20,804 nucleotides of DNA, taken from Candidatus Curtissbacteria bacterium RIFCSPLOWO2_01_FULL_38_11b (GTDB taxonomy: Bacteria > Patescibacteriota > Microgenomatia > Curtissbacterales > GWA2-41-24). Both the position numbers and the translations under genes were made by a program. The stretch is from NCBI GenBank assembly GCA_001774995.1, contig MFBO01000035.1:1-20804 (forward strand), given 5' to 3'. The notes below the pieces were generated by a model that saw only the letters and a list, made by a program, of their open reading frames with translations, had not been told where the DNA came from and made no database searches. Below are positions 3,945-19,343 of the stretch, one piece after another (the first letter of the stretch is position 1; each line of letters starts with the position of its first letter).

Positions 3945-4141
3945 TCCCGCATGCTTCCTTATTTCTATAATTGTTCAAGAGTACCACGGGTTTTTATCCG
4001 TGGGTGAATTGAACAATTACGTACTTGCCGAAGGCGAAGCCTGAGGATACCACTGCTGTTAAGCAGTGGTAGTTCATTTTTAAAAAATACATGTGCGGGA
4101 TATATCAGAGGAGCCCCGCACTGCGGGGACCTGCTGATATA
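3941..4141. repeat. Cluster of nested inverted repeats between uvrB and lexA
   Basis: About 200 bp hold several stems. An outer stem pairs TATATCCCGCATG (3941-3953) with 4090-4104, with a 2-nt bulge. Inside it, AATTGTTCAA (3969-3978) pairs with 4009-4018 and encloses CCACGG/CCGTGG (3984-3989, 3998-4003). TACCACTGCT (4048-4057) pairs with AGCAGTGGTA (4062-4071) over a GTTA loop. Finally TATATCAG (4101-4108) pairs with CTGATATA (4134-4141) around CCCCGCA/TGCGGGG (4114-4120, 4122-4128). No ORF is evident here. It may be an accumulation of palindromic elements, or a structured RNA or terminator region. Confidence 0.7.
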
Positions 4142-4156
4142 AGCTTACGTTACCGC

Positions 4157-4185
4157 TTGACTTTCGGTTAATCTTCGGTTAATAT
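4157..4185 (+). promoter_or_regulatory. lexA promoter with direct-repeat operator (candidate SOS box)
   Basis: The -35 is TTGACT (4157-4162) and the -10 is TAATAT (4180-4185), with a 17-bp spacer. The spacer is filled by TTCGGTTAAT at 4163-4172 and again at 4174-4183, an 11-bp period that runs into the -10. A 12-bp palindrome GTTAATATTAAC (4178-4189) overlaps the -10. The -10 ends six bases before the lexA ATG, so the message would be leaderless. The same layout is found at 17541-17569. LexA autoregulation is usual for the family; that these repeats are its site is an inference. Confidence 0.75.
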
Positions 4186-4191
4186 TAACGT

Positions 4192-4812
4192 ATGACAGTT
4201 GTTCTTTACAAGCGTCAAAAGCAGATCCTAGAATATCTAAATGACTATATTTCAAAGTATGGCCATGCACCTACTTTGGTCGAGATTGCTAAGAAGTTAG
4301 GGGTTAAGTCGCTTGCAACCGTTCATGAACATTTACAGGCTCTTGAGAAAAAGGGCTTCATTAAAAAAACTTCCGGATTGGTCAGATCCATTGAATTAAT
4401 TGATCAGAAAATGAGTAAAATCGTAAAGGGTATTGAATTGCCTCTTTCGGGTTTCATTGCTGCAGGTTCTCCCATCGAACCATATACAGATCCGAACGCA
4501 ACGTTTGCGATATCTGAAAATATGGTTTCACGATCTAAAAAATCATTCGTTTTGCAAGTTAAGGGTGATTCTATGATCGAAGACGGAATTCTGGATGGAG
4601 ATTTTGTGGTGATAGAAGAAACAAATGAGGCTAAAAACGGGGACATTGTTGTTGCGATGATCGAAAATGGCGTAGTTACCTTAAAGCGTTTTTTTAAAGA
4701 GAAAGATAGGGTAAGGCTGGAACCCGCAAATGCTTCCATGGAACCTATTTTTGCCAAAAATGTTACCATTCAGGGAAAGTGTATCGCAGTTATTAGAAGA
4801 TACCAGAATTAA
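4192..4812 (+). CDS. lexA: LexA repressor
   Basis: LexA represses SOS genes and inactivates itself by cleavage when stimulated by RecA filaments on single-stranded DNA. The N-terminal ~65 residues form the winged-helix DNA-binding domain (KRQKQILEYLNDYISKYGHAPTLVEIA). The cleavage site is Ala91-Gly92 in GFIAAGSPI. The S24 peptidase domain carries Ser127 (GDSM) and Lys165 (VTLKRF) as the catalytic dyad. At 206 aa it is the standard length with all active residues present, so it should be self-cleaving. No Shine-Dalgarno site precedes the ATG; the promoter -10 lies directly upstream. The 3' end overlaps the convergent Nramp gene by 4 bp. Confidence 0.96.
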   Translation: MTVVLYKRQKQILEYLNDYISKYGHAPTLVEIAKKLGVKSLATVHEHLQALEKKGFIKKTSGLVRSIELIDQKMSKIVKGIELPLSGFIAAGSPIEPYTDPNATFAISENMVSRSKKSFVLQVKGDSMIEDGILDGDFVVIEETNEAKNGDIVVAMIENGVVTLKRFFKEKDRVRLEPANASMEPIFAKNVTIQGKCIAVIRRYQN

Positions 4813-17531: not shown

Positions 17532-17545
17532 ATCAAGTACTTGAT
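17532..17545. promoter_or_regulatory. 14-bp perfect palindrome beside the SOS promoter
   Basis: ATCAAGTACTTGAT is perfectly symmetric and overlaps the -35 of the polymerase cassette promoter. It may be a second operator between the divergent rhomboid and polymerase transcription units. Confidence 0.45.
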
Positions 17546-17569
17546 ATTCGGGTTATTTTCGGGTAATAT
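17541..17569 (+). promoter_or_regulatory. Promoter with direct-repeat operator (candidate SOS box) of the polymerase cassette
   Basis: The -35 TTGATA (17541-17546), a 17-bp spacer and the -10 TAATAT (17564-17569). The repeats TTCGGGTTAT (17547-17556) and TTCGGGTAAT (17558-17567) start right after the -35 with an 11-bp period. Spacing, repeat phase and the -10 are the same as in the lexA promoter at 4157-4185. The leader to the ATG at 17635 would be about 60 bases. Confidence 0.75.
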
Positions 17570-17634: not shown

Positions 17635-17928
17635 ATGTCCCACGAAACTGCAATCGACGAACCGGTTAAAGTCTGGGCACTATTTGATTCTTCGATAAGC
17701 AGAGCTTTTCTGCGAATAAACTCAGAACAAGTCAAGATTTTCCCTATTGCCATGAGTTGGCAAAGAAGATTAGTGAAATTCGAAAAATTGATTTTGACAA
17801 CCAGCAGACGGGTTGGCCACATAAAAATTCTAACGTTAGTTTGTGCATCTAAGACTGCTAATTATGAGCTTGAATACAACAGTGAAAATTACATGTGGAA
17901 ATTAAAAAAAGTAATGCCTTTTGTGTAG
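17635..17928 (+). CDS. Small unknown protein, first gene of the SOS-type polymerase cassette
   Basis: A 97-aa protein directly behind the candidate SOS promoter and 62 bases before the Y-family polymerase. I do not recognise it with confidence. It looks mostly beta-stranded and basic: QVKIFPIAMSWQRRLVKFEKLILTTSRRVG, then ANYELEYNSENYMWKLKKVMPF. The pattern of a W-x-R-R strand, a YELEY strand and a final W-x-L-K-K-V strand recalls small DUF6504-type proteins found beside Y-family polymerases in other bacteria; this is a weak, by-eye resemblance. ATG 17635 is used; the frame extends five codons further to a TTG with no added support. Shared promoter and close spacing suggest a translesion-synthesis accessory role, which is an inference. 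Confidence 0.72.
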   Translation: MSHETAIDEPVKVWALFDSSISRAFLRINSEQVKIFPIAMSWQRRLVKFEKLILTTSRRVGHIKILTLVCASKTANYELEYNSENYMWKLKKVMPFV

Positions 17929-17969: not shown

Positions 17970-17997
17970 ATGGCGAATGGCGAATTGCTAATGGCAA
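17970..17997 (+). repeat. Four heptanucleotide repeats at the polymerase start codon
   Basis: The units are ATGGCGA, ATGGCGA, ATTGCTA and ATGGCAA in exact 7-bp register, so ATG occurs at 17970, 17977 and 17991. The first and last are in the same frame, 21 bp apart, giving two possible polymerase starts. Similar short tandem arrays lie upstream of genes at 6084 and 20433. Confidence 0.6.
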
Positions 17998-19343
17998 GAA
18001 TTATATTACATGTTGATTTAAATAGCTTTTTTGCAAGAGCTAGTCAACAAGCAAATCCAGCACTCCAGGGTAAACCCGTTGGAATTGTTAAAGCGCGTGG
18101 CAGGACTTGTATCATTGCTGCTTCAGTAGAAGCTAAAAGTTATGGTGTTGTTACGGGTTGCCGTGTTAATGACGCCAAAAAACTGTGTCCACAGATTATT
18201 TTGCTGCCTGCAGATTTTGATAAATACGAAGATATTAGTCGTCGCTTTATAAAAATTTGTGCTTCCTATTCGCCACTTTGTGAAGTTTTTTCGCTTGATG
18301 AGTGTTTTATTGATGTAAGCGAAACAACGCGATTCTGGCACAATAGGCCAATTACAAGCAGGGAACATCTCGCCTGGATTGAACTAGTCAGAAGCTTGGG
18401 ATTACCTATTGGTGCTATTAATATTGCTTTCGATATCAAAAGAAGGCTTAATCAAGAAATAGGAGATTTTATGACCTGTTCTGTGGGGATTTCTTATAAT
18501 CGACTACTTGCCAAGCTGGCATCGAACCAAATTAAGCCAGATGGACTTTTTTGGATAACCTCTGATAATGCACTTAATATTTTAGATAAATCACACTTAA
18601 TGGGTATCTGCGGTTTAGGCTTTGGGCTTTATAATCATTTAATAAAACTTGAAATTGATAATTTTTCAAAGCTTAGAGCATGTTCGCCTGCTTTTTTGCA
18701 TAAACATTTCGGCCCGTATTGGGCGGTTCATCTTTTCAATATTTGCCGGGGTATAGATAATACAGCTGTGATACCTTATCAGGAAATTCCTGAGGCTAAA
18801 AGTGTCGGTAGAACTTATACCACGCATAAGCCTTTAAACGATAAAAACGCAATTTATAAACTTACCAGAAACTTAGTAGAAGAAGTAAGCGCAAAAGCTC
18901 GCAAAATGGGTCTTACAGGACGTTACGTTGGCTTTTCTATGCGTAGTGGAGAAGAATATCAAAACAACAAAAATAATGGTTGGCTTGCCAACCGTAGCTT
19001 TAGCAAAGGTTGGCACGGACATAGAACTTTAAAAAATTATATTGACGACGGGAAAAAACTTTTTGATGTATGCAGATTAATTTCCAAAGATTGGGAGTTT
19101 AAAAATATCATATTCTGCAGCGTAACTTTAGGGATGCTTGCGAAAAAAGCATATTCGCCTCTTGTCCTTTTTCCAGACGATAAAAAGCAGGAAAATCTAA
19201 TCCAAACTATCGACAAAATTAACTGGAAATTGGGAGATTATACAATTTTTCCAAGCCAGCTTTTAGGAACTAGCATCATCAGGCCGGAAGTTACTGGCTA
19301 TTTTGGGGACAAAAAGTTTAGGTTAAACTTTTTGCGGAAATGA
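17991..19343 (+). CDS. Y-family DNA polymerase (DinB/UmuC-type translesion polymerase)
   Basis: Error-prone polymerase that copies past damaged bases. The N-terminal catalytic core begins ARIILHVDLNSFFARAS (metal ligand Asp9, steric-gate aromatic region) and has the second metal site SLDECFIDVS (Asp103, Glu104). SVGISYNRLLAKLASNQIKPDGLF is the palm/thumb signature. The helix-hairpin-helix region (MGICGLGFGLYNHLIKL) and little-finger domain (KSVGRTYTTHKPL onward) follow. At 450 aa it is longer than DinB (about 350) and closer to UmuC; the extra C-terminal ~90 residues are not recognised, and no beta-clamp motif is obvious there. ATG 17991 sits right before the conserved core; ATG 17970, in a heptad repeat, would add seven residues. 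It is co-transcribed with the 97-aa protein from a candidate SOS promoter. Confidence 0.93.
   Translation: MARIILHVDLNSFFARASQQANPALQGKPVGIVKARGRTCIIAASVEAKSYGVVTGCRVNDAKKLCPQIILLPADFDKYEDISRRFIKICASYSPLCEVFSLDECFIDVSETTRFWHNRPITSREHLAWIELVRSLGLPIGAINIAFDIKRRLNQEIGDFMTCSVGISYNRLLAKLASNQIKPDGLFWITSDNALNILDKSHLMGICGLGFGLYNHLIKLEIDNFSKLRACSPAFLHKHFGPYWAVHLFNICRGIDNTAVIPYQEIPEAKSVGRTYTTHKPLNDKNAIYKLTRNLVEEVSAKARKMGLTGRYVGFSMRSGEEYQNNKNNGWLANRSFSKGWHGHRTLKNYIDDGKKLFDVCRLISKDWEFKNIIFCSVTLGMLAKKAYSPLVLFPDDKKQENLIQTIDKINWKLGDYTIFPSQLLGTSIIRPEVTGYFGDKKFRLNFLRK

Follow-up and report, generated by a model that had tools for sequence, protein, structure and literature searches.

A predicted direct-repeat LexA operator at lexA and at a Y-family polymerase cassette in Microgenomatia

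The promoters of lexA and of a Y-family DNA polymerase cassette in the window (the whole stretch of 20,804 nucleotides analysed here) both contained a direct repeat of TTCGGKTWAT with an 11-bp period (4157-4185 and 17541-17569). With a probability of about 0.92, these repeats are LexA operators, at which a LexA dimer would repress transcription until DNA damage relieves it, and the best reading of the box is that it belongs to a small SOS regulon. Both promoters were built of a TTGA-type -35, a 17-bp spacer and a TAATAT -10. This common build and the 11-bp direct repeat had been described in an earlier note and proved correct to the base when the sequence was read again; its placement of one promoter 5' of lexA and the other 5' of a translesion polymerase was borne out by matches to TIGR00498 and Pfam IMS, respectively. 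The features were as follows.

4157..4162, + strand: -35 of the lexA promoter, TTGACT (from sequence)
4163..4172, + strand: predicted LexA half-site 1 of the lexA promoter, TTCGGTTAAT (from sequence; aligned position conserved in relatives)
4174..4183, + strand: predicted LexA half-site 2 of the lexA promoter, TTCGGTTAAT (from sequence; period 11 preferred in relatives)
4180..4185, + strand: -10 of the lexA promoter, TAATAT, overlapping half-site 2 (from sequence)
4192..4812, + strand: lexA, 206 aa, LexA wHTH and S24 peptidase (TIGR00498; Pfam)
17541..17546, + strand: -35 of the polymerase-cassette promoter, TTGATA (from sequence)
17547..17556, + strand: predicted LexA half-site 1 of the cassette promoter, TTCGGGTTAT (from sequence; box also 5' of relatives' Y-polymerase genes)
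17558..17567, + strand: predicted LexA half-site 2 of the cassette promoter, TTCGGGTAAT, 11-bp period (from sequence)
17564..17569, + strand: -10 of the cassette promoter, TAATAT (from sequence)
17635..17928, + strand: first cassette gene, 97-aa protein (102 aa from TTG 17620), Y-polymerase small partner, distantly DUF6504-like
17970..19343, + strand: Y-family DNA polymerase, 457 aa, with a second ATG at codon 8 (Pfam IMS 4.9e-42, IMS_C 8.9e-7)

The two identical half-sites of the lexA promoter were separated by a single C, and the two slightly different ones of the cassette by a single T. The lexA ATG, at 4192, was only 6 bases away from the -10, which is why the lexA mRNA is probably leaderless. 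TTCGGKTWAT-N-TTCGGKTWAT, with up to two mismatches allowed, was encountered at two places in the window, each without any mismatch. With up to three mismatches, five places were found in the entire draft genome, which is 77.5% complete and comprises 41 contigs totalling 535,950 bases: the two promoters with none and three others with three mismatches each; the backward control pattern was found at no place in the same genome at the same threshold.

The LexA protein scored 202.9 bits against TIGR00498, for which the curated cut-off is 110.95, and displayed the Pfam domains LexA_DNA_bind and Peptidase_S24. Its predicted Ala-Gly cleavage site (AAG, 90-92), serine (in GDSM, 125-128) and lysine (in TLKRF, 163-167) fall within regions that can be aligned with LexA proteins of solved structure. 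Among named organisms, the nearest relatives of this LexA came from a Candidatus Curtissbacteria bacterium (at 78% identity) and from many Daviesbacteria, both of which we take to be Microgenomates (Patescibacteria). The stretch between uvrB and lexA contained repeats, by eye hairpin-bearing and MITE-like: 3963-4079 had 97-100% copies at G000:C3:752-866 and C29:678-793 and a short copy at C7:3-36, and 4099-4144 had 92-93% copies at C32 and C16. Beside uvrB, at 636-1793, there was a transposase-like gene with matches to rve (Pfam, 3.5e-7) and IS481 (NCBIfam, 1.3e-8), both below the curated cut-offs.

The 97-aa protein of the cassette itself matched no Pfam or NCBIfam model; one of the 16 aligned members of its family matched DUF6504 at 3.9e-5. 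Single-sequence structure prediction yielded an all-beta fold of low confidence (mean pLDDT 59.5). Y-polymerases of family members, and of several class genomes beyond the family, likewise had a small protein of about 80-97 aa encoded 5' of them. Between residues ~125 and 148, the Y-polymerase of the window carried about 23 extra residues separating two blocks that directly adjoin each other in family relatives, G003, G007 and G002 among them. lexA (4192) and the Y-polymerase gene (17970) shared one contig and one strand, and the same held, at 13-18 kb from each other, in G003, G005, G006, G007 and G008.

Conservation upstream of lexA was surveyed in relatives outside the source genome, over the 150 bases upstream of 59 loci with at least 50% identity (L007-L066, except L027, whose upstream was absent), of which 57 were distinct. 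The earlier note had named lack of conservation 5' of lexA orthologs as grounds for rejecting the operator. The repeat was found conserved: TTYGG-N6-TTYGG (period 11) was present in 36 of the 57 Microgenomatia upstreams, whereas none of 50 shuffles gave more than one. No other TTYGG period from 6 to 25 exceeded five of 57, and only one of the 47 lexA upstreams of other bacteria (those of 49 loci with full 150 bases) displayed the period-11 repeat. A palindromic operator, such as TTAATATTAA at 4180-4189, was ruled out, inverted TTYGG/CCRAA arrangements being present in 0 and 1 of the 57 upstreams, which indicates a preference for the direct over the inverted form.

The 28 lexA boxes from relatives yielded the consensus TTGACAnnTTCGGGTTTTnTTTGGTA. 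Nine of 34 listed lexA boxes were located 31-84 bases from the ATG and all nine kept an adjacent TTGACA; the box thus appears to move together with the promoter. The strict form was missing from 21 of the 57 upstreams. One of these (L019) was a misplaced start, and most others displayed by eye a near variant, e.g. TTCGGGTTATATTTGATA, or a spacing between the words that was one base shorter. Among 17 more distant members of the class (an 18th stretch, L241, ended at a contig edge and was excluded), the strict form was recognized by eye in two, one of which duplicates L063. The lexA box of the source genome was the most deviant among those of the 12 genomes compared, scoring 14.3 bits against 24.5-32.5 for the others, ten of which (out of eleven) had been part of the model.

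Twelve family genomes, a subset of a larger group, were scanned with the family pattern at up to two mismatches, which revealed 61 sites versus 15 for the backward control; the source lexA box, with three mismatches to this pattern by direct count, is not among them. Forty-three sites preceded members of six families assigned by BLAST: lexA (11), the Y-polymerase cassette (11), nrdR (10), DUF3276 (6), DUF763 (4) and recA (1). Others, assigned by Pfam or by reading, preceded uvrA (1), thioredoxin-reductase-like genes (2, one of them Pfam-scanned), a C5 methylase (1), an HNH gene (1) and LAGLIDADG genes (3), while seven were within ORFs and three had no clear assignment. Since the list of target families had grown from such sites, having been drawn up after some of them had been seen, three further family genomes were checked. 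They displayed 15 sites versus one for the backward control. Eleven of these were at listed families (lexA 3, nrdR 3, Y-polymerase 2, DUF3276 2 and recA 1); eight of the eleven were fully blind, the three lexA boxes being already known from the lexA survey. The other four were 5' of a LAGLIDADG gene, of an HTH protein gene and of a DUF2806 gene, or inside an ORF. A relative of the 97-aa protein was encoded between box and Y-polymerase at nine of the 11 polymerase sites of the 12 genomes and at both of those of the three further genomes.

Y-polymerase matches were found in 14 of 16 genomes, with a box upstream in ten of the 14: the source genome, G002-G008, and G016 and G017 from other families. 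It was lacking in four: the match in G001 started at residue 97, the G020 gene stood at the beginning of its contig, and neither G015 nor G019 had a close LexA. In the source genome, a box model from the relatives' 28 lexA boxes pointed to four places with E <= 0.5, namely lexA, the cassette, nrdR and DUF3276, the scoring having covered 150 of the 491 candidates from a first look; a ribonucleotide reductase gene was directly 3' of nrdR.

An operator-like box shared by lexA and translesion polymerase promoters is what would be expected of an SOS regulon. The targets anticipated in the earlier note were confirmed in part: sites were enriched at lexA and Y-polymerase genes instead of being randomly placed, but the pattern scan revealed a recA box in only two of 15 family genomes (G001 and G013) and a uvrA box in one (G003). 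In the source genome, a box was looked for at recA, another gene expected of such a regulon, and was not found, and uvrA was likewise without one. The search extended to uvrB and revealed no box there either; a three-mismatch match at 2109, inside the uvrB frame, was taken as chance. The recA box of G016, which belongs to another family, displayed a form with N7. By eye, another conserved element, roughly ACTTGTAATTTT-AAATCTRTAGTAAAACTA, was present 5' of family recA genes (L144, L145, L147-L151), and L151 (G001) displayed a second box-like sequence on the opposite strand next to its recA box. Upstream of nrdR, short frames shared the letters DHNILCFW (L188, L177, L182); the DNA behind them may be an NrdR box, in which case LexA and NrdR might both control nrdR.

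The class as a whole offered a further control. LexA matches were found in 53 of 55 genomes, source included, and were absent from two; six of the 53 were merely distant (E 1e-16 to 1e-32). Forty class genomes outside the family set were scanned with a related pattern at up to one mismatch. The 32 with a close LexA displayed 22 sites versus 7 for the control, and the eight without a close LexA ortholog 3 versus 2. Five of the 22 were 5' of Y-polymerase cassettes (four further class genomes besides G017 had such a box), three were lexA boxes by coordinates and one was 5' of a rarA-like gene. The remaining 13 had no assigned repair role, and one of them preceded a LAGLIDADG-like frame below the Pfam cut-off. 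None of the three sites in the genomes without close LexA was 5' of a recognised repair gene: two were within opposite-strand ORFs, one of these also 22 bases 5' of an 85-aa frame, and the third was 116 bases 5' of an ORF without known repair role. Diverged LexA-like sequences were encountered in open frames of 489-605 aa (G013:C12, G013:C97, G022:C77, G024:C7 and G018:C17). At G013:C97, a box was divergently placed beside such a frame, 5' of the DUF2806 gene.

Three other explanations were weighed against LexA operators. The box might be the operator of another regulator, an HTH repressor responding to damage or nucleotides, with lexA as just one target, and the further, diverged LexA-like proteins of several family genomes could provide such a regulator. 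This is unlikely, as the box was 5' of lexA in all 15 family genomes (11 of the scanned set, the three further ones and the source), as autoregulation predicts, while nrdR and the Y-polymerase were the next commonest targets after lexA and the pattern fell to near control level in the genomes lacking a close LexA ortholog. Still less probable is that the repeat is a spacer element of a lineage-specific promoter class: TTGAC did stand immediately 5' of 32 of the 34 listed lexA boxes, by reading, but an element of promoters in general should be frequent, and the model matched only four places genome-wide at E <= 0.5. A chance likeness of two AT-rich promoters, to which the low number of exact copies genome-wide, just two, might point, can be dismissed in practice, given that no joint match at up to two mismatches occurred in 100 dinucleotide shuffles of the window and that the box is conserved and recurs in relatives.

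Under repression by LexA, a dimer of the protein encoded at 4192-4812 would bind the two same-facing TTCGG half-sites, one helical turn (11 bp) apart, so that one DNA-binding head would have to be rotated compared with its placement on a palindrome. As the repeat fills the stretch from -35 to -10, bound LexA would block RNA polymerase, keeping it off the lexA and cassette promoters. Upon DNA damage, RecA filaments would trigger LexA self-cleavage at the Ala-Gly site. Both units would then be switched on, together with nrdR and ribonucleotide reductase, and with DUF3276 (Pur-alpha-like), elsewhere in the genome.

A search with LAGLIDADG_3 in the 15 family genomes gave eight matches in six genomes. 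Two belonged to longer frames (820 and 864 aa) that may represent inteins, and no box with up to three mismatches was found at their loci. Five of the six genes in shorter, free-standing frames had an upstream box with two to three mismatches (G001:C101, L316; G003:C17, L318; G006:C10, L312; G009:C18, L314; G013:C1, L319), the exception being in G012; several of the five had first come to notice through the box, while the denominator of six comes from the independent family search. Relative to the box, frame starts ranged from -6 to 170 bases. As background, boxes with up to three mismatches were found seven times per 718,158 strand-bases in the lexA loci of other bacteria (backward pattern, six) and once per 67,044 strand-bases in nine family recA loci (backward, none); this single match must be the one-mismatch recA box of G001. 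Such selfish endonucleases may exploit the damage signal of their host. A literature search on homing endonucleases with LexA and SOS gave, among the matches listed, none about SOS-boxed endonucleases by title.

The SOS network of Patescibacteria was reportedly treated in 2017 by Sanchez-Osuna, Barbe and Erill (Environ Microbiol 19:3465). In the available parts of two later papers, that study is cited among motif reports in a context where LexA motifs are said to vary (PMC8565304), and again where LexA is said to have evolved direct-repeat recognition in several instances (PMC7739468); the available part of a third paper (PMC10235906) is silent on the motif. Because the 2017 study is cited both for LexA motifs and for direct repeats, the suggestion of the earlier note that the box is undescribed is doubtful and probably wrong. 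The motif of that study is from the same superphylum as the source, and the present box or a near form of it is probably already in print. A literature search for LexA with Microgenomates found no paper. We raise only tentatively the wider proposal that TTCGG-N6-TTCGG is new for Microgenomatia, couples translesion synthesis to nucleotide supply and was repeatedly entered by LAGLIDADG genes. If true, the free-standing LAGLIDADG endonucleases would fire only during host DNA repair. Apart from that proposal, the box gives a readable DNA-damage regulon to a lineage that is uncultured and whose genomes are very small, and it adds a clear case in which a direct repeat is apparently recognised by LexA.

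The alphaproteobacterial LexA box, GTTC-N7-GTTC, is described in the available part of PMC8565304 as a direct repeat with an 11-bp period. This arrangement is common to both, while the core here is TTCGG-N6-TTCGG. The earlier note had stressed this different core, and rightly so: GTTC-N7-GTTC was found in none of the 57 Microgenomatia lexA upstreams and was absent from the window, and was present in four of the 47 upstreams of other bacteria. In Balneolaeota, the LexA box TTACACATATTTTWTACATA is likewise a direct repeat and, according to the available part of PMC7739468, was bound by LexA in EMSA. As far as that text goes, lexA and translesion polymerases are targets in both groups, the sites here being known from sequence; the cores differ by reading, and recA belongs to the Balneolaeota regulon but rarely carries a box here.

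The Bacillus-type LexA box, CGAAC-N4-GTTCG, is a palindrome. Its half-site contains TTCG, like the box described here, which is a direct repeat instead. Exact Bacillus-type and E. coli-type boxes were found in none of the 57 Microgenomatia upstreams and also in none of the 47 others, which makes this a weak test. The recognition-helix region of the source LexA (SLATVHEHL) resembles SSPATIHAHL, the commonest form among the other bacteria compared (labelled Bacilli). Measured from one fixed column of the alignment to another, the LexA linker was 18 residues long in 50 of 62 Microgenomatia rows (range 17-22; the rows count the source LexA twice and include near-duplicates), versus 14-21 in 45 of 49 rows from other bacteria and more in four (26, 33, 33 and 33); these lengths rule out that direct-repeat reading stems from a longer hinge. 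With a recognition helix like that of other bacteria and a linker of no unusual length, this clade is suited to asking what makes LexA change between palindrome and direct repeat, and how a dimer turns one of its heads.
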